A DNA stretch of 64,000 bases from Fibrobacter sp. Lineage in GTDB: Bacteria; Fibrobacterota; Fibrobacteria; Fibrobacterales; Fibrobacteraceae. Each line of letters starts with the position of its first letter. The stretch's first letter is position 1. Below the pieces are notes generated by a model that saw nothing but the letters and a program-made list of their open reading frames with translations, was not told the origin of the DNA and made no database searches. This document shows, one piece after another, positions 1 through 13,129 of this stretch. The position numbers and the translations under genes are program-made. The stretch is from positions 1 to 64,000 of the forward strand of contig JAKSIF010000007.1 of the NCBI GenBank assembly GCA_024398965.1, in the 5' to 3' direction.

Positions 1-11
1 CGAAAGTCAAC

Positions 12-34
12 AAAAAAGGGTGGCGAAGCCACCC
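12..34 (-). terminator. terminator-like hairpin at the left edge
   Basis: A perfect 7-bp inverted repeat (GGGTGGC, loop gaa, GCCACCC) is preceded on the + strand by six A, so read on the - strand it is a stem followed by six T: a factor-independent terminator for a leftward transcript. It lies just upstream of the first ATG of the surface protein gene. The + reading frame also stays open through it to base 3, so it could instead be coding. Confidence 0.5.
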
Positions 35-38
35 ACAC

Positions 39-2828
39 ATGTTGATGAAGAGCCTCAAAAATTCAGAAAATGAAGTGACTGGCGATGAAAAAGATGCTGT
101 CTTTTATGATTCTGGCGAAGGTGATGAGCGTATTATCCGTAGTAAAGCTATGAATCACAATGTCGTAATTTCAGATGATATCAAGACTGAAGTTGCTGCT
201 AGTACTAAGTATGCGTTTGCTGGGGAAACAGTTTCTTTGAATATTAGTGTTGCTGTTGATGCATCATCACTTCTTATAAATGGTGGTAGTGTTGCGTTGA
301 CTAATGCAGAAGATGGCTTATACACCTTTGTTATGCCTGATGGTGATGCTAATGTATCAGCTGGAACAATAGATACATATTCTGTCAAAATACCAGAGCA
401 AATGGAAATTGTTAGCACATCCAATCCTGCAGATGGTGACGGTAAATATATTTCGGGAACAATAGTTGAGTTTAGACTCATGTTTCCTTATACAACAACT
501 GATGTTTCTGATGGTACAAATACGTTGGTCGCAGCAAATGGTATATATAGTGTGACTGTTGGGACATCTGATATAAATGTTACAGCAACTATAGAACATA
601 ACAGTTTAATTGATTTGTCTGAAGCTCCTAATAATTTCATTGCTGTAGATGGACTTGTATTTAGCGGTTCAACCCAATATACAGTGATGGTTGCTGATAA
701 GGCTAATATTACTCTTTCTGGAGCAACAATCAATGGCGGAATTATCTGTGATGGCTCTGCCACAATTACGCTTGTCGGTACGAACAACGTGAGAGGCGCT
801 ATGAATATGGCTGGTATCCAGGTTGGTGGCGAAGGAACAACCCTAACTATTAGGGGAAATGGTTTTTTGAACGCATCGGGAGATAATCAATCTGCAGGGA
901 TTGGTTTAAGTCGTGCTTGGAATCCTGAAAGTGATGTTGTTGGTGGCGATATCGTCATCGAGGGCGGAACAATCACAGCCATCGGTGGTTCTGAGTGGGG
1001 CGCAGGCATCGGAACGGGTGTTATCAGGGGCGAATTGGACGAAGGTCGCGGAAAAAATGTACGAGTCGGCAACATCACGATCAAGGGCGGAGTGGTAAAG
1101 GTGATAGGCGGTGAGGATGCTGATGGCATTGGTACGGGTTATACATATTATGGTTCTAAGAATGAAATTGGTACTGTGACTATATACGACGATGTCGATG
1201 TGGTGGATGCATCAAGCATCAAGAACGGCGAAAGCATAATTTATATGCATGACAATACTGATGTGTCTGAAAGTAAAAATGATTATTTCACCATTATTGA
1301 TAATGGAGAACATAAAATCATATATACAGGAAATCCTGTTTCTGATATTGAGGATCAGACATATACAGGCGAAGCAATTACTCCAAAGCTAACGGTTTCA
1401 TTAGGTTCTCTTAATTTCACCGAAGGTACCGACTATGAGTATTCATATACCAACAATAAAAATGTTGGCGCCGCAACTGTAACAGTTACTTTCCGTGGTG
1501 AATATGACTGGGTAAAACCTGTAACAAAATCCTTTAATATCACGAGGGCTACGCCCACAGTTGAACCGCCGACTTCTGCTAATCCGAAGTACGCTGGTGC
1601 ATGTGTCGCGCTTGTTACCGCCGGATCTACGAACTTTGGAACGATGCTTTACAGTTTAGATGATGATGATGATTACTCGGAAAATATTCCTTGTGCGGAT
1701 AAAGGCGGCGATTATACGGTTTACTATAAGGTCGAGGAAAGCGATAACTGGTCTGCTGCCGCAGGGAGTGTTGAAATTCAGGTGCCGGTTCGTGTTGATG
1801 TGACCGTGGTTGGCGACGGTTCTGTAAATGGCTACGATCCCGACGAATTCTACCCTGTTGGTACAGTACTTACCCTTACCGCGGAGCCGGATGAGGATTA
1901 CAGGTTTACCGGTTGGGATGATGATTTTGACGCACCTGCTGAACGCGTATGGACTGTTCTAGCGGATGCCAAGGACAATGAGTTGACCGTGAACTTCCAG
2001 CAGAAAACTGTTTGTTATGGTGCGGTTTGTGTGTACAATGATGGAATTAATGAGGTTGAAGCGACTATTGACGGTGATTCCAACATCCCCTGGTCTATTC
2101 CCGAAGAGATTCGTGTGCAAAGGGTGAACCTGAACAGAAACTTTGCTCGACAGGGATATTCCACAATCGTTCTTCCCTTTGATTTCGAGGAGATTGAGGT
2201 CGATGAAGCCGAATTCTATGAACTGGACGGAGTCTCTTTCGCAAATGACAAGTGGAACGTGTCTGTCACGCCTGTATCGGAAGTTAGACCCAATACACCG
2301 TACCTGATTCATGTTATGAAGAATAATGTTTCCTTTAGTGGAGATATAGCTCTGCGACCTATTGACGATGATGAGGATTGTTCTGTAACTAAGAATGGCT
2401 GGGAACTTTGCGGCACCTATGAATACAAGGTCTGGAAAGATGGCAATCCTGAACTTGGCAGGGTCTATGGCTTTGCTGCCGAAGAACGTGACGGAGCTCG
2501 TATCGGACAGTTTGTTAGGCTTGCCTACAACGCCTCTGCAAAGCCCTTACGCGCCTACCTGCGCTATGTGGGAAGTCCCAGGCCTGCTCCCGCATTGTTC
2601 AAGGCGGCTCCAGCCGTCGCAAGTATCGATGAACTCCCTGAATCCATGGATGTGGTCATCAGGGGCGAAGAGGGAACAACCGTCATCGGAACCATCAACA
2701 CCCGCACCGGTGAGTTCCGCTCCGTAGACAATCGCTGGTTCGACCTGAACGGTCGTTACCTCGGCAACAAAAAGCCCACTATCAAGGGAACCTACTACAA
2801 TAATGGAAAGAAAGTCATTGTCAAGTAA
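39..2828 (+). CDS. secreted beta-helix/surface protein, 5'-truncated paralogue
   Basis: Unrecognised by name; clearly a paralogue of the 1195-residue protein at 5778-9365. Similarity begins near residue 14 (GDEKDAVFYD), matching about residue 262 of the paralogue, so the signal peptide and N-terminal repeats are absent here. In order it shows Gly-rich beta-helix-like repeats (about 265-365, AGIG motifs), an MBG-like beta domain (about 430-500, YTGEAITPKLTVSLG), a divergent InlB-type repeat (about 590-660, RFTGWDD), a conserved C-terminal region and a last ~30 residues (WFDLNGRYLG to KKVIVK) resembling type IX secretion sorting signals. The frame is open to the window edge, so the true start may lie outside or the copy may be a fragment. 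The exported role is inferred from the paralogue. Confidence 0.7.
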   Translation: MLMKSLKNSENEVTGDEKDAVFYDSGEGDERIIRSKAMNHNVVISDDIKTEVAASTKYAFAGETVSLNISVAVDASSLLINGGSVALTNAEDGLYTFVMPDGDANVSAGTIDTYSVKIPEQMEIVSTSNPADGDGKYISGTIVEFRLMFPYTTTDVSDGTNTLVAANGIYSVTVGTSDINVTATIEHNSLIDLSEAPNNFIAVDGLVFSGSTQYTVMVADKANITLSGATINGGIICDGSATITLVGTNNVRGAMNMAGIQVGGEGTTLTIRGNGFLNASGDNQSAGIGLSRAWNPESDVVGGDIVIEGGTITAIGGSEWGAGIGTGVIRGELDEGRGKNVRVGNITIKGGVVKVIGGEDADGIGTGYTYYGSKNEIGTVTIYDDVDVVDASSIKNGESIIYMHDNTDVSESKNDYFTIIDNGEHKIIYTGNPVSDIEDQTYTGEAITPKLTVSLGSLNFTEGTDYEYSYTNNKNVGAATVTVTFRGEYDWVKPVTKSFNITRATPTVEPPTSANPKYAGACVALVTAGSTNFGTMLYSLDDDDDYSENIPCADKGGDYTVYYKVEESDNWSAAAGSVEIQVPVRVDVTVVGDGSVNGYDPDEFYPVGTVLTLTAEPDEDYRFTGWDDDFDAPAERVWTVLADAKDNELTVNFQQKTVCYGAVCVYNDGINEVEATIDGDSNIPWSIPEEIRVQRVNLNRNFARQGYSTIVLPFDFEEIEVDEAEFYELDGVSFANDKWNVSVTPVSEVRPNTPYLIHVMKNNVSFSGDIALRPIDDDEDCSVTKNGWELCGTYEYKVWKDGNPELGRVYGFAAEERDGARIGQFVRLAYNASAKPLRAYLRYVGSPRPAPALFKAAPAVASIDELPESMDVVIRGEEGTTVIGTINTRTGEFRSVDNRWFDLNGRYLGNKKPTIKGTYYNNGKKVIVK

Positions 2829-3056
2829 GCCGAAGTGCGGCTATGTCAAGCCGGAAATGAAAATCGTCAAGCTGAAGGCCCGCACAAGCCTGCTCCAGGG
2901 TAGCGGCTCTCAGGATCCGATTGATGATTTGCCGGGATCGTTGGATGTTATAATAATCGGAAAATAGAGGAAATAATATGCAGAAGAAAGAATACAAGAC
3001 TCCGAAAATGAAGGAAATCAAGCTCAAGGCCCGTGCTAGCTTGTTGTCGGGAAGCA
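2596..3056 (+). repeat. direct repeat copy 1 (exact, ~461 bp)
   Basis: Read base by base, this segment is identical to 9133-9593 (offset 6537). It covers the last ~230 coding bases of the surface protein, the whole first small peptide gene and the first half of the second. The flanks diverge at once: one mismatch at 2595 on the left, and a 3-nt (AGC) length difference followed by substitutions on the right. Confidence 0.95.
2803..2967 (+). CDS. small Lys-rich peptide, head-conserved family, member A1
   Basis: A 54-codon frame starts inside the end of the upstream surface protein gene in another frame (ATG 2803; a TTG at 2818 would give 49 residues, closer to the sibling peptides) and stops at 2967, 10 nt before the next small gene. 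The product has a basic head (KPEMKIVKLKARTSLLQGS) and an acidic-hydrophobic tail. The head aligns with the next gene's product (PKMKEIKLKARASLLSGS). No signal peptide or known domain is seen. The head/tail arrangement resembles leader-core peptides, but no modifying enzyme is adjacent. It is identical to the copy at 9340-9504. Confidence 0.5.
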   Translation: MERKSLSSKPKCGYVKPEMKIVKLKARTSLLQGSGSQDPIDDLPGSLDVIIIGK

Positions 3057-3124
3057 GCGATGGTTACCACGGAACGGTTGGCTACAACGATCTGCCTGAT
3101 TCCGTAGAAAAAACTGAAGTATAA
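2978..3124 (+). CDS. small Lys-rich peptide, head-conserved family, member A2
   Basis: 48 residues, preceded by a purine-rich GAGGAAA site. The first ~26 residues (KMKEIKLKARASLLSGSS) are identical to the product at 9515-9667, while the tails differ (a DGYHGTVGYNDLPDSVE type against a DGYYHGGISYNGMPDSVD type). The head also matches member A1. It is probably co-transcribed with the surface protein and ends just before a strong terminator. Function unknown; candidates are a secreted or modified peptide, or a small partner of the surface protein. Confidence 0.55.
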   Translation: MQKKEYKTPKMKEIKLKARASLLSGSSDGYHGTVGYNDLPDSVEKTEV

Positions 3125-3216: not shown

Positions 3217-3396
3217 ATGTCAAATACGGATGCTTTACATCAGTTGTTTGCGCAATGTCAAAAGATAAATTTTGACGAGTCCTATGATATCATTGCCTCG
3301 GCCCATAGTCCGGAAGAGGCTGATTTTTTCCGTATGGCTACGGATTTGATCCTTAAGCAGAAACAGAAAAAAGCCGTTGAAGAGAATCGTTTTTAA
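3217..3396 (+). CDS. putative antitoxin of zeta-type module
   Basis: 59 residues starting MSNTDALHQLFAQCQ and ending in a charged KQKQKKAVEE helix. An AAAGGAG ribosome site lies 6 nt before ATG 3217. Its TAA shares one base with the ATG of the kinase-like toxin (TAATG), implying translational coupling. The antitoxin role is inferred from this position and from the same layout in the module at 4537-5327; no sequence family was recognised. Confidence 0.7.
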   Translation: MSNTDALHQLFAQCQKINFDESYDIIASAHSPEEADFFRMATDLILKQKQKKAVEENRF

Positions 3397-3941
3397 TGAA
3401 ACGCTATATTCTTTTTGCGGGGTGTAATGGCGTTGGAAAATCAACGCTCTATCAGACTAATGACATGTTTCGAGAGATGCCTCGCGTGAACATGGATGAA
3501 ATTGTCCGTGAATTTGGTTCGTGGAAAAATGAAGCAGACGCGTTCAAGGCCGGGAAAATCGCTGTTCGAAAAATAAGTGAAAACTTCTCAAACGGACTGT
3601 CGTTCAATCAAGAAACTACACTTTGCGGATCTTCTGTTTGGAAAAATATTTTGAGAGCTCGTCAACTTGGCTACAAAATTGAAATGTACTATGTCGGCGT
3701 TCAATCAGTCGAAATCGCAAAGGAGAGAATTCGTTCAAGGGTTTCAAAAGGTGGCCACGGCATTCCCGATGCTGATGTTGAACGTCGATTTGTAGAATCT
3801 GTTGAAAACTTGAGGAAGGCTATCGAACTTTGTGATGTTGTTGAGGTTTTTGATAATACGGATTCGTTCATCCGAGTTGCTAGGTATGAACGCGGTCAGT
3901 GTGTTTTGAAATCAGAGAATGTCCCGACATGGGTTCCGTGA
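3396..3941 (+). CDS. zeta toxin-family P-loop kinase
   Basis: 181 residues with a Walker A motif near the N-terminus (GCNGVGKST, residues 9-17) and the zeta-family segment KGGHGIPDADVERRF (about 120-135). Zeta toxins and related proteins phosphorylate UDP-activated sugars or other small molecules and are neutralised by a co-encoded antitoxin; that is family knowledge and the substrate here cannot be told. It follows its likely antitoxin with a 1-nt overlap, and a repeat-type terminator lies about 60 nt downstream. It differs in sequence from the second zeta-like gene on the other strand, so this is not a recent duplicate. Confidence 0.8.
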   Translation: MKRYILFAGCNGVGKSTLYQTNDMFREMPRVNMDEIVREFGSWKNEADAFKAGKIAVRKISENFSNGLSFNQETTLCGSSVWKNILRARQLGYKIEMYYVGVQSVEIAKERIRSRVSKGGHGIPDADVERRFVESVENLRKAIELCDVVEVFDNTDSFIRVARYERGQCVLKSENVPTWVP

Positions 3942-4536: not shown

Positions 4537-5127
4537 TTACAGAAGGTCCTGGACCCAATTGGGTAGCCTCTCGGCGTACTGCTTGAACAACTCCCCGTCA
4601 ACCATTCTGCAAATCAGTTTTGGCAACTGGTTTTCGACGGAATTGTCATAGATGTACGCTCTGTCAACCATGGAGATTGCGATAGCGGCATTCGCCAGGG
4701 ACTTGTAATAGCGGGTCACAATTTTAGAGATGGGAACCTCGTGTCCGCCTGTAAGAAAACGATTTGTTACACGGAGAACATTAATTGAGGGTTTCTCTGT
4801 GCAGACAAAGAAAAATCGTATAAAAAAGCCCGCCTCTTTTGCCTTGCGGACAAATTCAAGTTTTTCGTCTGATGAAAAAACGGTCTCGAACACGAAGTTT
4901 TTCTTTTCTTCGAGACACTTATAGCGAAGTTCGGTTGAATGTTGCGCAGCTTTTAATACAGCATCGTTTGAATTCCAGTTTCCGAATATTTCTTGGGCAA
5001 TGTTGTCCGGGTTAATATAGATGCTGTCTGCAGCCCATTCGTTTTCTAGCAACTGAATGGTTGTGGTTGTTTTACCAGAGCCATTCGGACCGGCGACAAT
5101 GCAAAGTGTTGGCTTCTTTTCGCTCAT
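4537..5127 (-). CDS. zeta toxin-family P-loop kinase (second module)
   Basis: 196 residues with Walker A GPNGSGKTTTT (about 13-23), the family segment FLTGGHEVPISKIVTRYY (about 123-140) and an INPDNIAQEIFG stretch typical of zeta-like kinases. Its ATG overlaps the stop of the upstream small gene by 4 nt (ATGA). A kinase acting on a nucleotide-sugar or other small molecule is expected from the family; the substrate is unknown. It ends 10 bp from the end of the transposase remnant. Confidence 0.8.
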   Translation of the reverse strand: MSEKKPTLCIVAGPNGSGKTTTTIQLLENEWAADSIYINPDNIAQEIFGNWNSNDAVLKAAQHSTELRYKCLEEKKNFVFETVFSSDEKLEFVRKAKEAGFFIRFFFVCTEKPSINVLRVTNRFLTGGHEVPISKIVTRYYKSLANAAIAISMVDRAYIYDNSVENQLPKLICRMVDGELFKQYAERLPNWVQDLL

Positions 5128-5486: not shown

Positions 5487-5606
5487 ATGAATATCGTCGC
5501 GTGTGATGGACTGAAGTTTGTGGCGACCGCTGAGGGAGCCTTTGCGGGCTGTGGCCTTGTGGCGCAGGTCCGTAAGTCCATTACCTCCCCCCCCCAATGT
5601 AACTAG
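5487..5606 (+). CDS. possible leader ORF with poly-C tract
   Basis: A 39-codon frame begins within a few bases of the predicted transcription start, so it would be nearly leaderless. It ends at TAG 5604-5606 just after nine consecutive C (5587-5595). Losing one C would join it to a frame running to 5757, close to the ribosome site of the surface protein gene. No homology is recognised; it may be coincidental. Confidence 0.25.
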   Translation: MNIVACDGLKFVATAEGAFAGCGLVAQVRKSITSPPQCN

Positions 5607-5777: not shown

Positions 5778-8700
5778 ATGATGCGTAATGGCATTAACTC
5801 TTATTTGACCTCGCTGGTCATGGTGCTGGCGCTGTTGTTGCCCACGGCTTTATTTGCCCAAACGGCATATCTTGACGAAAAAGGCTCTCTAAAAACACTA
5901 GAAGAATCTGCAACAGCGATTACTAGCTCTATGACAACCTGGAGTGCAGGCTGGTATGTTGTATCGGACAATGTAACAATTGATGAGCGCATCACGGTAA
6001 ATGGTGATGTGCATTTGGTATTAGCTGACGGAGCGACTCTTAATGCAAATAAAGGTATTGGCGTTAGCAGTAGTGCGACATTCAATGTCTATGCGCAGTC
6101 GGAGAATGAAGCGACGATGGGCAAACTCATCGCTACAGCAGAATCGCGATACAACGCGGGTATTGGCGGCAGCAAAGGTTCAAAAGCAGGAGAAATTACC
6201 ATTAATGGCGGAAATATCACTGCTATAGGTTATGATGGCGCAGGAATTGGATCTGGATATAAAGGAACGGTAGGAACAATCACCATTAATGATGGCGTGA
6301 TTGATGCAAAAGACAATTATTATGGATATGGATATGGCGCAGGAATTGGAGGTGGTCGTTATGGAAGCGCTAGTGTCATAGATATAAAAGGTGGTGTTAT
6401 ACAAGCCAAGGGAATAGGAATGGCGACCACTAGCTACGGTAACCCCACTTGCGGAAATATCAATATCTACGATGGTGTGAAGAAGATAATTGTTACAAGT
6501 AAGGACGATGGAAAAGGACTGGCAAGTTCAAGTGCGGTCACATTCTACAGCGGTAGTAGCGCAGTCGAAGGCGATGAAAAAGATGCTGTATTCTATGATG
6601 TAGAAAAAGGCGGTGGAAGAGAAATTCGTTCTATTGCAAAGAATCACTTGGTTACGATAGCTGATGTTGCGAAAGCTAGCGTAGGCTCTGTCGCGTATGC
6701 ATATGCAGGCGAATTGGTCACGTTGACTTTGGGCACTGCGGCCAATGAATCTTCTTTAACGGTAAGTGACGGAACAAACAACCTTGAACTGACAGGTGCT
6801 GGCGATGGCAAGTACACGTTTGTAATGCCTGAAGGTGATGTAACTGTAACTGCAGATGTTTTACAGACGTACTCCATCTCCCTGCCTACCGGTATGAAAA
6901 TCATTGGTTCGTCAATTGCTGCTGATGGTAACGGAACGTATATGACAGGGACGAAGGTTGAGTTCAAACCGAGTTTCCCATATTCTGCATCAAATGTGTC
7001 GGATGGTGTTAATACATTGACAGCAACAGATGGTGTGTATAGTGTCGTTGTGGATGGTTCGGACATTACGATTACAGCTGACGTGCAACGTGATGAAATC
7101 ATTGATTTGACTCGGGCACCAGGTGCATTCGCTGCTATCAATGGAGATGTTTTGTCGGGCTCAACTAGCTATACGGTTCATATTGCCGATGGTGCAACAA
7201 TAACCCTTTCTGGTGCGATAATTAACGGCGGCATTGTCTGCGACGGTTCTGCTACGATTATTCTTGAAAGAGAAAATACTGTGAAGGGCGCAACGAATAT
7301 GGCTGGTATCCAGGTTGGTGGTGAAGGAACAACCCTTACGATTAAGGGTAACGGTTCTTTGACGGCAACGGGTTATAGCCAATCAGCGGGTATTGGTTTA
7401 AGTCGTGCTTGGAATCTTGATTATGATGTTGTTGGTGGGGATGTTGTTATTGAAGGCGGAAATATCACCGCCCAGGGTGGTAGCTATGGCGCAGGTATTG
7501 GTACTGGTATATTGCAAGGTAGTGACAGGAAAGTAACTCTTGGTAATATCACCATCAAAGGAGGAACTGTAAAGGCTATTGACGGTAAAGCCCCGAATGG
7601 AGATAAAGTTGCTAACGGCATAGGAACAGGAGATGCTTATCCTGGCTGCACAAATGAAGTTGGCGAAATTACAATCTACGATGATATTGTTGTAGTTGAT
7701 GCGTCAAGCATTAGTAAGGATGTTACCTATATGCATGGAGAGACTGACGTGACAGACAGTAAGGAAGAGTACTTCACTGTCAATAAAAATGATGATCGCA
7801 TGGCCATTGCGCAGAAGCTCACAATTGGTGATGTAGAAGACCGAACTTATACTGGTGAAGCTTTCACACCGAAACCATCGGTATCATTAGGTTCCAGCGT
7901 CCTTACTGAAGGGCAGGATTTCGAATATTCCTATGAGAATAATGTAAATGTTGGGAATGTTGACGATAAACCCACCGTAACAGTAACCTTCAAGGGTGAT
8001 TACGAAGGTTTAGGAACCGTCTCCAAGACCTTCAATATCACAAAGGGTACTCCTGAGGTGATTTCCAACCCGACTCCCAACGAAGAGGGTTATGCAGGAA
8101 AGTGCCTTGCCCTCGTCAACCCCGGCACCACGAACTTTGGCAAACTGCTCTACAGAACACTCGAAGAAGAATCGTTCTCGGAAACCATCCCCTGTGTAGA
8201 TAAAACCGGCGACTATCTCGTGTACTACATGGTTGCGGAAGGTGAAAACTGGGAAAAATATGTTCCCCCAGAGCCAATTCTCGTTACTGTGGAACTTGCA
8301 AAGTTCAAGGTCACCTTCGTAGATGATGAGGGTGACGAAATCATCTCTGATGAATACGAGTATGGCACTCCGGTTGTTGATATTGCGAAACCGACGGGAA
8401 ATCCAAAAAAGGCTGACGATGAAATGTATGCCTACACCTTTGCTGGCTGGAGTCCTGAAATTCAGGATGTGACTGGTGCTAAGACATATCGTCCAATCTA
8501 CGGTAAAACCCGTATCGGTTTCGGCTCTGCCACTATCGCTGCGGATGGCTCTTGGGCAATTATCGACGGAAAGTCCAGTAAAAAAATTGATGCCGATCTT
8601 GATGCCGTCGAGATTACTGGAGATGTGACTCTCAATCGTGAATTTGTGGCGGAAAAGCCTTCCACCATCGTGCTGCCCTTTGGTACGCATATAGACAATG

Positions 8701-9365
8701 TTCCCGGATTCACCTTCTATTCGTTCAAGGGTGTTGTAAAGGAAAACGGCGTCTGGAAGAAGGTTGTCTTCGACGAAGTTGACAAAGAAGGTGATGGACA
8801 CATTTATGCGAATACCCCCTACATTGTTGTTGCCAAAGAAGATGTGGGCGGCCTAATTGTGGAAAACGGTGTGGTATTTGATTTAAACAGTGTACGTCCG
8901 ATGTCCAGCGAGGATGGTATTTGGCAGTTTGTGGGCACATACGATTTCAAGGTCTGGAACGAAGGTGATCGTGATATTGGCAGGTCATACGGTTTTGCTG
9001 CTGAGGAACGTGATGGTGCACGTATCGGACAGTTTGTAATGCTTGGAAGCAACGCCTACGCATATCCCATGCGCGCCTACCTGTATTATGCAGGGGGTAA
9101 CTCTGGAGAATCTCGCAGTATGGCTCCCGCACTGTTCAAGGCGGCTCCAGCCGTCGCAAGTATCGATGAACTCCCTGAATCCATGGATGTGGTCATCAGG
9201 GGCGAAGAGGGAACAACCGTCATCGGAACCATCAACACCCGCACCGGTGAGTTCCGCTCCGTAGACAATCGCTGGTTCGACCTGAACGGTCGTTACCTCG
9301 GCAACAAAAAGCCCACTATCAAGGGAACCTACTACAATAATGGAAAGAAAGTCATTGTCAAGTAA
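5778..9365 (+). CDS. large secreted beta-helix/surface protein
   Basis: 1195 residues starting with a signal peptide (SLVMVLALLLPTALFAQ) cleaved near residue 27. It carries Gly-rich repeats (GAGIGSGYKG, about 115-215 and again about 495-600) resembling Cthe_2159-type carbohydrate-binding beta-helices, an MBG-like domain (about 690-770, YTGEAFTPKPSVSLG), a Listeria-Bacteroides-type repeat (about 855-925, YTFAGWSPEI), a C-terminal region with GARIGQFVMLG, and a final sorting-like tail (WFDLNGRYLG to KKVIVK). An AAGGAG site precedes ATG 5778. The paralogue at 39-2828 carries a different (InlB-like) repeat in the equivalent place, so the family is modular. A carbohydrate or cell-surface role is inferred. 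Confidence 0.75.
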   Translation: MMRNGINSYLTSLVMVLALLLPTALFAQTAYLDEKGSLKTLEESATAITSSMTTWSAGWYVVSDNVTIDERITVNGDVHLVLADGATLNANKGIGVSSSATFNVYAQSENEATMGKLIATAESRYNAGIGGSKGSKAGEITINGGNITAIGYDGAGIGSGYKGTVGTITINDGVIDAKDNYYGYGYGAGIGGGRYGSASVIDIKGGVIQAKGIGMATTSYGNPTCGNINIYDGVKKIIVTSKDDGKGLASSSAVTFYSGSSAVEGDEKDAVFYDVEKGGGREIRSIAKNHLVTIADVAKASVGSVAYAYAGELVTLTLGTAANESSLTVSDGTNNLELTGAGDGKYTFVMPEGDVTVTADVLQTYSISLPTGMKIIGSSIAADGNGTYMTGTKVEFKPSFPYSASNVSDGVNTLTATDGVYSVVVDGSDITITADVQRDEIIDLTRAPGAFAAINGDVLSGSTSYTVHIADGATITLSGAIINGGIVCDGSATIILERENTVKGATNMAGIQVGGEGTTLTIKGNGSLTATGYSQSAGIGLSRAWNLDYDVVGGDVVIEGGNITAQGGSYGAGIGTGILQGSDRKVTLGNITIKGGTVKAIDGKAPNGDKVANGIGTGDAYPGCTNEVGEITIYDDIVVVDASSISKDVTYMHGETDVTDSKEEYFTVNKNDDRMAIAQKLTIGDVEDRTYTGEAFTPKPSVSLGSSVLTEGQDFEYSYENNVNVGNVDDKPTVTVTFKGDYEGLGTVSKTFNITKGTPEVISNPTPNEEGYAGKCLALVNPGTTNFGKLLYRTLEEESFSETIPCVDKTGDYLVYYMVAEGENWEKYVPPEPILVTVELAKFKVTFVDDEGDEIISDEYEYGTPVVDIAKPTGNPKKADDEMYAYTFAGWSPEIQDVTGAKTYRPIYGKTRIGFGSATIAADGSWAIIDGKSSKKIDADLDAVEITGDVTLNREFVAEKPSTIVLPFGTHIDNVPGFTFYSFKGVVKENGVWKKVVFDEVDKEGDGHIYANTPYIVVAKEDVGGLIVENGVVFDLNSVRPMSSEDGIWQFVGTYDFKVWNEGDRDIGRSYGFAAEERDGARIGQFVMLGSNAYAYPMRAYLYYAGGNSGESRSMAPALFKAAPAVASIDELPESMDVVIRGEEGTTVIGTINTRTGEFRSVDNRWFDLNGRYLGNKKPTIKGTYYNNGKKVIVK

Positions 9366-9593
9366 GCCGAAGTGCGGCTATGTCAAGCCGGAAATGAAAA
9401 TCGTCAAGCTGAAGGCCCGCACAAGCCTGCTCCAGGGTAGCGGCTCTCAGGATCCGATTGATGATTTGCCGGGATCGTTGGATGTTATAATAATCGGAAA
9501 ATAGAGGAAATAATATGCAGAAGAAAGAATACAAGACTCCGAAAATGAAGGAAATCAAGCTCAAGGCCCGTGCTAGCTTGTTGTCGGGAAGCA
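9133..9593 (+). repeat. direct repeat copy 2 (exact, ~461 bp)
   Basis: Identical to 2596-3056. The absence of any silent difference across coding and non-coding parts, while neighbouring coding sequence has diverged, points to recent gene conversion or duplication of this end segment only. Confidence 0.95.
9340..9504 (+). CDS. small Lys-rich peptide, member B1
   Basis: Identical at DNA and protein level to member A1 (2803-2967): 54 residues, overlapping the end of the surface protein gene in another frame, with head KPEMKIVKLKARTSLLQGS. An alternative TTG start lies at 9355. The next peptide gene begins 10 nt after its stop. Function unknown. Confidence 0.5.
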   Translation: MERKSLSSKPKCGYVKPEMKIVKLKARTSLLQGSGSQDPIDDLPGSLDVIIIGK

Positions 9594-9667
9594 GCAGCGA
9601 TGGTTATTACCATGGAGGGATTTCCTATAACGGTATGCCTGATTCCGTTGATTGTAAGAACGTTTAA
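9515..9667 (+). CDS. small Lys-rich peptide, member B2 with divergent tail
   Basis: 50 residues. The head is identical to member A2 up to ASLLSGSS; the tail gains one Ser, changes to GYYHGGISYNGMPDS and ends VDCKNV instead of VEKTEV. GAGGAAA precedes the ATG. A terminator follows 28 nt after the stop. It is the only one of the two second peptides with a Cys in its tail. Confidence 0.55.
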   Translation: MQKKEYKTPKMKEIKLKARASLLSGSSSDGYYHGGISYNGMPDSVDCKNV

Positions 9668-9768: not shown

Positions 9769-9996
9769 ATGCCGGTATCAGAAACCTTAAATCCAGTTCA
9801 GTTGCATCTTTTAGATATGTTCAGATTTTGCAAGTCTGATTTAGAACTCCTTGAATTAAAGGATGTTCTTGCCGCGTATTATGCCCAAAAGGTGCAGGAA
9901 GAGGCCGATCGCTTGTGGGATGATGGCACTTTGGATGCCGATGCGATTGAGCGTATCGGAAAAGAACATTGGCGAACTCCGTATAAGGCCTTGTAG
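9769..9996 (+). CDS. putative antitoxin of PIN module
   Basis: 75 residues, acidic and helical (LELLELKDVLAAYYAQKVQEE), ending EHWRTPYKAL. A GGGAGG ribosome site precedes ATG 9769. The TAG overlaps the GTG start of the PIN gene by one base. This acidic helical type often accompanies COG1569 PIN toxins; no DNA-binding fold is evident. Confidence 0.7.
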   Translation: MPVSETLNPVQLHLLDMFRFCKSDLELLELKDVLAAYYAQKVQEEADRLWDDGTLDADAIERIGKEHWRTPYKAL

Positions 9997-10409
9997 TGCG
10001 TCGGATTTGTCTTGATACGAATTGCCTCTTGATGGCTTTGCCATCGCGAAGTCCGTACCATAAAGTATGGACCGATTTTTTAGGTAATTCAATTGAATTA
10101 TGTGTATCGACAGAGATTTTGCTTGAGTACGAGGAAATCTTGTCTGAACATGCTTCCCCTCGCATGGCACATCTTGTTGTTGAAGCTTTGACAAACCGTA
10201 AAAATTTGGTGCGTGTGGAACCGAGTTGGCATTTTGAGTTGATTAAGGTTGATCCTGATGACAACAAGTTTGTGGATTGCGCGATTTGTGGACAGGCTGA
10301 ATATATCGTTTCAAATGATAGTCATTTCAAGGTTTTGAATGACATTGATTTTCCTGTGGTAGCTTTAAAAACGTTGAAAGAGTTTGTTGAAGAACTTGAA
10401 AGGGCGTAA
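9996..10409 (+). CDS. PIN-domain toxin (putative endoribonuclease)
   Basis: 137 residues from a GTG start. PIN features are visible: N-terminal ICLDTNCLL with the first acidic residue (D6), the central TEILLEYEEIL Glu, and the C-terminal DPDDNKFVDCAI plus YIVSNDSHF with the last acidic residues, a layout like the COG1569/TIGR00305 group. PIN toxins cleave RNA with divalent metal; the target is unknown. It is translationally coupled to the small gene upstream and convergent with the ATPase gene, with a shared terminator between. Confidence 0.8.
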   Translation: MRRICLDTNCLLMALPSRSPYHKVWTDFLGNSIELCVSTEILLEYEEILSEHASPRMAHLVVEALTNRKNLVRVEPSWHFELIKVDPDDNKFVDCAICGQAEYIVSNDSHFKVLNDIDFPVVALKTLKEFVEELERA

Positions 10410-10447: not shown

Positions 10448-10485
10448 ACGAAAGTCCTTCCGAACAAAATCGGAGGGACTTTTTT
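10448..10485. terminator. terminator, repeated type, copy 3
   Basis: Same hairpin as at 3127-3163 (AAAGTCCTTCCG/CGGAGGGACTTT), lying between the convergent PIN and ATPase genes. The T run on the + strand overlaps the ATPase stop codon (10484-10486). A-rich flanking sequence could make it work in both directions. Confidence 0.85.
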
Positions 10486-11842
10486 ATAGGCACATGGCCA
10501 TGTAGGCGGGCAGGCAAATAATTCCGTCGTCCTTGATTTCGAAGTTTTTGGGGTGTATTATGTACGCCTCTCCGATTCGCTTGCGGAACTTTTCGCGGAA
10601 TCTTGTCAACGATTCGTATTTGTACCGCTTGCCCGACTTGACTTCAATGGGGAAAATCTTGAAGTTCACCTTGTTGTTGTCGGTTATGATAAAGTCGATC
10701 TCGATGTCGTTTCGGTGCTTTTCTTCGTTGTAGTGGGTGTAGAAAAATGCCTTGTGTCCGTTTGCGCGCAGCATTTGCGCTATGGCGTTCTCGTACAGCA
10801 TGCCTTCGTTCAGGTTGAGCTTTCCGTTGAGAATTTGCTTGTAAAGTTCGTTTTCGGTTATGGCGTTTTCGCTAAAGGCGTGGCTTGCCAGGAGCCCGGT
10901 GTCGCCCATGTAGCATTTTATGTAGGCCCTTTCTTCGTTAAGTGTCAGGCCTACATTAGGGTCTGTGCAGTTAAAGCATTCGTTGACGATCCTTGAATTA
11001 CCGAGCCAAAAGAAGGTGTCTGCATATTGAGCAAAGTAAGAGCCCGCCTGGATTTCGCTGAAGACGATGCGCTTTTCGTGCTGCGAAAGGAATGCGGGAA
11101 TTTGGTCGAAGATTGCAAGTACACGGGACTGGTAACGGTCCTCGATTTTCATGATGTCGTCGCGGTACAGCTTTAGAATGTCCCGCTTTTCTTCGTCGCT
11201 CCTTTGGAAGGACCGCTTTTCAAGAAACGCAGCGACGCTTTGGGGCATGCCGCCAACGAGAATGTACTCCTTGAAGATGAGCATGGCTTTTTCGTGAAGC
11301 CCTCTTTCTAGGGGAATTTTCTTTGCAAAGCAGTTCTTGATGTATTTGACCAGCATGGATTCGCCAAGTGCGTCGCAAAATTCCTCAAAGTCCATGGGGT
11401 GCATGTCCATGGCGCGTTCTTCGGAAGGTATCGTGATGTTCTTCACGTTCTGCTGTATGGAAATGAGGGATCCCGTTTCAAGGTAGTCGTAGCGCCCGTC
11501 CTTTACGAGTTTCTTTATGGATTGCCTAGCCTTTGGAAAACGCTGTACCTCATCAAAGATAATCAGGGATTCCCTGTTGAAAAGTTCTACGCCGTATTCG
11601 GTGGAGAGCACCATGAAAAATGTGTCCAAGTCCCCCAGAAGGTTGTTGAACGCGTTGATTACTGCATTGGAGACATCGTTGAAGTCGATAAGGATGTAGG
11701 ATCTGTATTCGTGCCTAGCGAACTCTTCGGCGATGGTGGATTTGCCGATACGCCTTGCGCCCTCGATGAGCAGGGCTTTTTTTCCTTGGGTGGTGTTTTT
11801 CCAGTCAAGCAGCTTGGAGTAGATTTTTCTTTTGAATGCCAT
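10484..11842 (-). CDS. AAA+ ATPase with DUF4143 domain
   Basis: 452 residues with Walker A GARRIGKST (about 28-36), Walker B LIIFDEVQRF (about 92-101), a sensor-like stretch LETGSLISI (about 120) and a C-terminal DUF4143-type nuclease-like region (FPIEVKSGKRYKYESL, about 398-413, containing the E-x-K motif of PD-(D/E)XK folds). Such proteins are common and often present in many copies, but their role is uncertain (possibly defence or mobile-element related). Its upstream region contains three ~35-bp direct repeats. Confidence 0.8.
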   Translation of the reverse strand: MAFKRKIYSKLLDWKNTTQGKKALLIEGARRIGKSTIAEEFARHEYRSYILIDFNDVSNAVINAFNNLLGDLDTFFMVLSTEYGVELFNRESLIIFDEVQRFPKARQSIKKLVKDGRYDYLETGSLISIQQNVKNITIPSEERAMDMHPMDFEEFCDALGESMLVKYIKNCFAKKIPLERGLHEKAMLIFKEYILVGGMPQSVAAFLEKRSFQRSDEEKRDILKLYRDDIMKIEDRYQSRVLAIFDQIPAFLSQHEKRIVFSEIQAGSYFAQYADTFFWLGNSRIVNECFNCTDPNVGLTLNEERAYIKCYMGDTGLLASHAFSENAITENELYKQILNGKLNLNEGMLYENAIAQMLRANGHKAFFYTHYNEEKHRNDIEIDFIITDNNKVNFKIFPIEVKSGKRYKYESLTRFREKFRKRIGEAYIIHPKNFEIKDDGIICLPAYMAMCL

Positions 11843-11981: not shown

Positions 11982-11998
11982 ACAAAATGTCATTTTGT
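11982..11998. promoter_or_regulatory. 17-bp palindrome at nucleotidyltransferase start
   Basis: ACAAAATG-T-CATTTTGT is a perfect palindrome. It overlaps the alternative start codon at 11987 and precedes the preferred start at 12017, a position suitable for an operator or a translation-masking hairpin. Confidence 0.45.
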
Positions 11999-12016
11999 CG
12001 CCCTGATGAGAATGCT

Positions 12017-13129
12017 ATGGATTTTTCCAGATACGATAATTTTTTCCTTCTGTTGCGTATTGCGCTTGGGTGTCCGGGGGCAAGTGTTGGCGCGTTTCCG
12101 CGGCTGTCTGCGGATGAGTGGGAACGCATTTACAACGAGGCGGACCGGCAGACTCTTCTGGGGCTTGCGTTTGACGGGGTGATGAAGTTGCCTCAGGAGC
12201 TGCGCCCTCCCATGGAACTGATGTTCCAGTGGGCCAGCGAAGCGGAATCCTTTAGTGGCCTAAACAAGATTTTGAATGAGGAAGCGGCGAGGCTCACCGA
12301 ATTTTTCAGGGGGCATGGCAGGAGTTGTGCCGTTTTGAAGGGGCAGGCCAATGCTCGCCTTTATCCGAATCCGCTTTGCAGGCAGCCGGGAGATATTGAC
12401 ATCTGGGTTTCCGGCGGGAAAAAGAGCGTCGTGGGTTTGCTGCGGGAAACTGAAATGCAGGAATCGCTGAAGGCTTCGCCGCACCACACCCACATGAAAA
12501 ATGACCGTGGAATTGATGTGGAGATGCATTTCCGTACGTCTTCGGGCAACTACAATCCGTTTACGACAAGGCGACTGCTGAAATATCTGGACAAAGAAAT
12601 CCTGAACTCGGTAGAGGTTCCCGAAGGTTTCTGCGCCCATTCCATAAAGTTTGCGTTGGCCATGCAGCTGTCGCACATCTATCGTCATTTTATTGGTGGC
12701 GGGGTTGGGTTCCGGCAGATTGTAGATTACTATGTGTTGCTTAGGCATTCCAGCGAAAGCGATCGTAGCGAACTGATGGCGAACTTGAACCGCTTTGGAC
12801 TGCGGAAAATTGCGGGGGCCCTCATGTGGCTGCTTCGTGAATCGATTGGTCTTGACGAAAGTCTGATGCTTTGCAAGCCCGACGAATTCCGCGGGCGGTG
12901 GCTCCTGCGGGAAATCCTGAAGGGCGGCAACTTTGGCCGCCATGTAGGAGGCGGTCGCCTCAAATGGCTTTACTGGTGGTTTGGCAAGCGCAAGAAATCC
13001 CTAAGTTACTGGCGCTTCGATTTGGCGGAAACCTTCTGGGCGGAAGTCAACTACTGGAAAATTTTTGTGGGGAATACTTCGACACGAATCCGGCTGCGCA
13101 AGATTTCCCTTAGGGATGTGAAGTTCTGA
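12017..13129 (+). CDS. nucleotidyltransferase-fold protein (NTP_transf_5/PF14907-like)
   Basis: 370 residues from ATG 12017 (GATGAG 6 nt upstream); an in-frame ATG at 11987 would add 10 residues. The nucleotidyltransferase signature is QPGDIDIWVSGG (about 125-136), with a second acidic position in RGIDVEMHF (about 163-171). Members occur beside capsule, lasso-peptide and other secondary-product genes, but the reaction is not established. No such cluster is adjacent here. It converges on carB with a bidirectional terminator between. Confidence 0.65.
   Translation: MDFSRYDNFFLLLRIALGCPGASVGAFPRLSADEWERIYNEADRQTLLGLAFDGVMKLPQELRPPMELMFQWASEAESFSGLNKILNEEAARLTEFFRGHGRSCAVLKGQANARLYPNPLCRQPGDIDIWVSGGKKSVVGLLRETEMQESLKASPHHTHMKNDRGIDVEMHFRTSSGNYNPFTTRRLLKYLDKEILNSVEVPEGFCAHSIKFALAMQLSHIYRHFIGGGVGFRQIVDYYVLLRHSSESDRSELMANLNRFGLRKIAGALMWLLRESIGLDESLMLCKPDEFRGRWLLREILKGGNFGRHVGGGRLKWLYWWFGKRKKSLSYWRFDLAETFWAEVNYWKIFVGNTSTRIRLRKISLRDVKF

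Follow-up and report, generated by a model that had tools for sequence, protein, structure and literature searches.

We propose that small open reading frames (ORFs) behind certain large exported proteins of Fibrobacter encode the precursors of a RiPP similar to the linear polyphosphorylated peptides (LPPs), and that one enzyme set processes them in trans. We put the probability of this reading at about 0.82. The ORFs are read in this way because the enzyme set matches that of the LPPs, which Popov et al. (2026) described from Bacillota (PMC13381572). A sequence-only reading of the window, which is the whole 64,000-nucleotide stretch of Fibrobacter DNA analyzed here, had suggested leader/core precursors but recognized no described family. 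The precursor idea is well supported by a YxxP leader together with an RRE, a kinase, a protease, an exporter, and an NTP_transf_5 protein in a conserved operon, and the LPPs now provide a described family.

All four small ORFs predicted in the window are present at the positions first given for them (Table 1). The first peptides of the two pairs are identical. The ATG start of the first ORF (2803) falls inside the 3' part of the surface gene; translation may instead begin at a TTG (2818). Each copy of the exact duplication takes in the 3' end of the surface gene, all of the first peptide, and the second peptide's leader. Its 3' edge falls at the leader/core border of this second peptide, immediately past the invariant Ser. 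Past this edge the second-peptide cores diverge, and they differ by two codons net, in frame. The second members had been described as sharing a head and diverging beyond the duplication, which is correct, but the indel is two codons net rather than 3 nt. Pfam and NCBIfam scans of the window peptides gave no meaningful match.

Table 1. Positions of the peptide genes and associated features in the window
Feature	Position	Strand	Remarks
Exact 463-bp duplication, copy 1	2596..3058	+	
Large exported surface protein 1 (N-terminus outside window)	3..2828	+	beta-helix repeats, tail domain 2625-2825
Imitated segment IDELPESMDVVIRGE, first copy	2625..2669	+	predicted first beta-strand of tail domain
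Putative precursor peptide, first of pair 1	2803..2967	+	YxxP leader, mimic core 2920-2964
Invariant Ser of first peptide, pair 1	2902-2904	+	
Putative precursor peptide, second of pair 1	2978..3124	+	AGAGG ribosome site upstream
Invariant Ser of second peptide, pair 1	3053-3055	+	
Large exported surface protein 2	5778..9365	+	signal peptide, beta-helix repeats, tail domain 9162-9362
Exact 463-bp duplication, copy 2	9133..9595	+	
Imitated segment IDELPESMDVVIRGE, second copy	9162..9206	+	
Putative precursor peptide, first of pair 2	9340..9504	+	mimic core 9457-9501
Putative precursor peptide, second of pair 2	9515..9667	+	invariant Ser at 9590-9592
NTP_transf_5 (PF14907)	11987..13129	+	nucleotidyltransferase-like, LppN/PsmN-like; E 4.2e-40

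Ten copies of the peptide occur in the window's own genome, on contigs C2, C5, C7, C76, and C84, and 75 of 80 Fibrobacter genomes have peptide matches. Contigs related to the window loci came mostly from Fibrobacter MAGs. A search with the head motif had been suggested as a check on the initial reading, and homologues with a conserved head were found genus-wide. The family sample held 158 distinct peptides. With the Tyr taken as position 1, all 158 have Y1 and P4, in a collection that demanded P and Y/F/H at these two positions. M6 (79%), L17 (94%), and L18 (86%) are also conserved, and position 21 is Ser in 146 of the 158 peptides (92%), in an LLxxS context at a Y-to-Ser distance of 20. The leader is slightly basic, and the core is variable and acidic (mean net charge, -3.4). 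The shared basic head noticed at the outset, first given as KLKARxSLL-x-GS, is better written YxxPxM...LLxxS. One peptide, on contig C76 (L055:1737-1916), has no tail protein in front and is possibly the remnant of a recombined locus. A near-identical Fibrobacter surface gene and peptide were also found on a contig labelled as a Paludibacteraceae MAG (L011), which is probably misbinned. Bacteroidales genomes also contain many small YxxP proteins, so the peptide system may extend beyond Fibrobacter.

The peptides had been thought to lack an adjacent modification enzyme, but the window contains a PF14907 gene (Table 1); the first pair (2803-3124) has none within 5 kb. There are four PF14907 genes in the genome, each at a peptide locus. 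Among the 150 peptides listed across the genus, 48 were no more than 5 kb from a PF14907 gene, where 0.8 were expected. All 48 were on the same strand as that gene, which was downstream in 45 cases. An AAA_14/DUF4143 ATPase gene lies on the opposite strand between the peptides and NTP_transf_5 in the window (10484-11842), and one is similarly placed on contig C84 (L054:2821-4146).

Only one PqqD in the genome scored above the family cut-off (Pfam PqqD E 1.4e-13), and it is on contig C5, clustered with a peptide. The order there is NTP_transf_5, a surface protein of the same tail class, the peptide, an HprK-like kinase, an S26-like protease, PqqD, and an ABC exporter, and the setting is a polysaccharide gene region. 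The kinase match (Hpr_kinase_C E 1.8e-4) is under the curated cut-off, and its P-loop GKSGTGKST is kept in 19 loci. The protease match is weak and also under its cut-off (Peptidase_S26 E 0.004); residues S29, H77, and D92 are kept in 21 loci. The combination of PqqD and exporter with kinase and protease was seen again in 20 further Fibrobacter genomes, with the kinase in 18 of the 20 stretches, and the recurring operon is often preceded by NTP_transf_5, a peptide, and a surface protein. PqqD was found in 72 of 80 genomes. Three of 40 good genomes lacked PqqD, and these were also the three that lacked PF14907; peptides were absent from two of them and the third had one weak match. Structure matches of the RRE to TAL repeats were rejected as summed short repeats, and searches of solved structures returned nothing informative for the other enzymes or the tail module. 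Other Fibrobacterota (G153 and G110; L148:2025-3310 and L152:5519-7888) have HprK-like, S26-like, and NTP_transf_5 genes close together. No recognizable YxxP peptide was found in these clusters, which are perhaps more distant LPP-like systems.

By gene set and precursor features, the Fibrobacter system can be likened to an LPP-type variant. Both have a YxxP leader and a variable C-terminus in the precursor. Both also have a discrete RRE, an HprK-like kinase, an NTP transferase, and an MsbA-like exporter, with no cyclase and in a polysaccharide locus. The nearly invariant Ser of the Fibrobacter peptides may be the counterpart of the conserved LPP Ser, and the S26-like protease with Ser/His/Asp that of the archaeal-type signal peptidase I (SpI)-like leader peptidase. 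The differences are that the motif is LLxxS in Fibrobacter but FETxxS in Bacillota, where the Y-to-Ser distance is 18 rather than 20, and that the one to three precursor ORFs of Bacillota are inside the cluster, whereas those of Fibrobacter are scattered behind surface proteins. Furthermore, no tail-domain partner or core mimicry has been reported for Bacillota LPPs, which their authors state to be restricted to Bacillota and of unknown role (PMC13381572). LPP cores are polyphosphorylated by the kinase on their Ser 3, and the protease cuts two residues before that Ser (PMC13381572).

By analogy with the characterized LPP and pseudomycoidin enzymes, the single clear PqqD-like RRE on contig C5 would bind the YxxPxM leader, and the HprK-like kinase would phosphorylate the invariant Ser of LLxxS, which is probably phosphorylated. 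NTP_transf_5 might then put a further group on the phosphate. In the lasso peptide pseudomycoidin, the related PsmN is linked to a hexose on phosphorylated Ser (as reviewed in PMC9266682). The LppN-type step is uncertain because deletion of LppN in Bacillota caused no visible change (PMC13381572). The signal-peptidase-like protease would cut the leader off near LL; cleavage had first been suggested after GS, but by analogy with LPPs it would fall two to three residues earlier, after LL. The ABC exporter would send the acidic core out. About ten precursors, encoded at several loci behind dedicated surface proteins, would be served in trans by these enzymes. We would guess that the product acts at the cell surface together with the upstream protein.

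A profile of the special tail of these surface proteins picked out five proteins in the genome, each with one or more peptides directly behind it. Nine of the ten peptides in the genome, and 143 of 158 in the genus sample, sit behind such proteins. The genome also has 69 matches to TIGR04183, the ordinary T9SS tail, with none at the five special-tail loci and no peptide behind any of the 69. Because 5/5 tail proteins carry peptides and 0/69 T9SS-tail matches do, the peptides go with one special tail class. They do not follow sorting-signal proteins in general, as had been supposed. The tails do resemble T9SS cargo C-terminal domains in being C-terminal and beta-rich and in having a similar look (GR...KP..KG.YY.NGKKVIVK), but all five are missed by TIGR04183. 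T9SS type A cargo has an Ig-like beta-sandwich as its C-terminal domain; an AlphaFold model of the 71-residue tail was all-beta (pLDDT 75) with no clear PDB match, and for the 281-residue C-terminal module the model was poor, at pLDDT 40. Around 5586-5597, some 180 nt before the surface gene that starts at 5778, is a tract of about ten C residues that is possibly phase-variable, and a similar stretch precedes the C2 surface gene.

Some cores resemble the tail of the protein in front of them. In the window, the core IDDLPGSLDVIIIGK resembles the tail segment IDELPESMDVVIRGE of the upstream protein, and another such likeness is SESMEVEFIER versus SNSMEVDFVER. The imitated segment is the predicted first beta-strand of the tail (71-residue model; pLDDT of the block about 83 to 86), and it ends about 45 to 62 residues before the C-terminus of the upstream protein. 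When cores were tested against shuffled versions, p<0.01 was reached by 12 of 36 peptides that come first in a pair, but by only 3 of 33 second peptides and 2 of 74 single peptides. For first peptides, own pairings scored better than other pairings, with a permutation p of 5e-5, which is the floor of the test. Second peptides had a weak excess (p=0.015), and the 74 single peptides had none (p=0.33).

These findings bear on the possibility that the peptides are dedicated partners of the upstream protein, such as docking strands, plugs, or chaperone-like factors, and that the RiPP enzymes only tag them. The one-to-one linkage with the tail class and the closer likeness of first-in-pair cores to their own upstream protein than to others favor it, as do the strand prediction at the imitated segment and the use of different codons for most of the shared residues (DNA identity in the core/tail stretches is 47 to 67%). 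However, single peptides show no excess and second peptides only a weak one. Old duplication and joint descent could also explain part of the core/tail likeness. We consider the partner explanation possible but on balance unlikely as an alternative, and it is compatible and overlapping with the precursor reading. A small-partner role had been suggested before, and it is supported in part, since the peptides go with a single class of tail that is imitated by some of the cores. Our favored guess on the role, held just as tentatively, is that a phosphorylated or glycosylated core has evolved to imitate the tail beta-strand and would dock on, cap, or anchor its own surface protein. As a further guess, the first-in-pair core might occupy or compete for the site of the tail's first beta-strand. 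If this were true, the RiPP would serve one particular protein as its partner rather than act as a free natural product.

Somewhat less probable still is that the RiPP is secreted as a signal or an antimicrobial and that its genes merely hitch-hike beside those of surface proteins at recombination hotspots. The loci are recombinogenic, as the 463-bp duplication indicates, the cores are variable, and toxin-antitoxin-like modules are present. Directly behind the peptide pairs (3396-3941, 4537-5127, and 9996-10409) come P-loop genes that are Zeta-toxin-like and one for a PIN-domain toxin, with small ORFs upstream, which suggests that the peptide loci are insertion hotspots. Against hitch-hiking, the linkage to one tail class is genus-wide and does not extend to the 69 ordinary T9SS-tail matches, and core and tail are similar.

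Far less likely is that the products are ordinary lasso peptides that have gained an accessory kinase and NTP_transf_5, as in paeninodin and pseudomycoidin. Those systems (PsmK/PadeK and PsmN) share the RRE-bound Y/WxxP leader, the HprK-like kinase acting on Ser, and the NTP_transf-type enzyme, and the best NCBIfam models for the discrete PqqD are lasso PqqDs, though under cut-off. However, they have a cyclase and a B2 protease, and their modified Ser is C-terminal. A search of the Fibrobacter genome for the B2 transglutaminase-like protease (PF13471) gave no match. There was also no full-length lasso cyclase (Asn synthase-like) in the genome and none in the operon, only three short, weak PF00733 matches. 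The absence of the B2 protease and a full-length cyclase led us to reject lasso biosynthesis, and the cores have no conserved Asp/Glu at position 7 to 9.

The small ORFs are protein-coding genes under selection. Pairwise dN/dS was 0.13 for the leader, 0.23 for the cores of first peptides, and 0.39 for those of second peptides. This is a coding pattern, and the synonymous/non-synonymous comparison had been named beforehand as a check. An SD-like motif precedes 71% of peptide starts, compared with 17% of random sites. The earlier view that these are real genes is thus borne out by purifying selection, by the copies within the genome, and by matches across the genus. The ORFs are short, and the C76 orphan is perhaps a remnant, but chance ORFs in non-coding or decaying sequence are refuted by the genus-wide conservation, together with purifying selection and the SD excess.

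Our literature search, with subscription journals outside its coverage, found no earlier report of such a system in Fibrobacter. Three features are new. The precursors are scattered, with ten per genome for one enzyme set. They stand behind all five special-tail proteins and behind none of the ordinary T9SS-tail matches. The predicted tail strand of the upstream protein is imitated, in many of the tandem pairs, by one of the two cores, mostly that of the first peptide. A matching system in most genomes of Fibrobacter, a major cellulose-degrading gut genus, would widen the LPP class to another phylum. Furthermore, with the peptides tied to a defined class of partners, the role of the peptides and of the NTP_transf_5 enzymes becomes testable.
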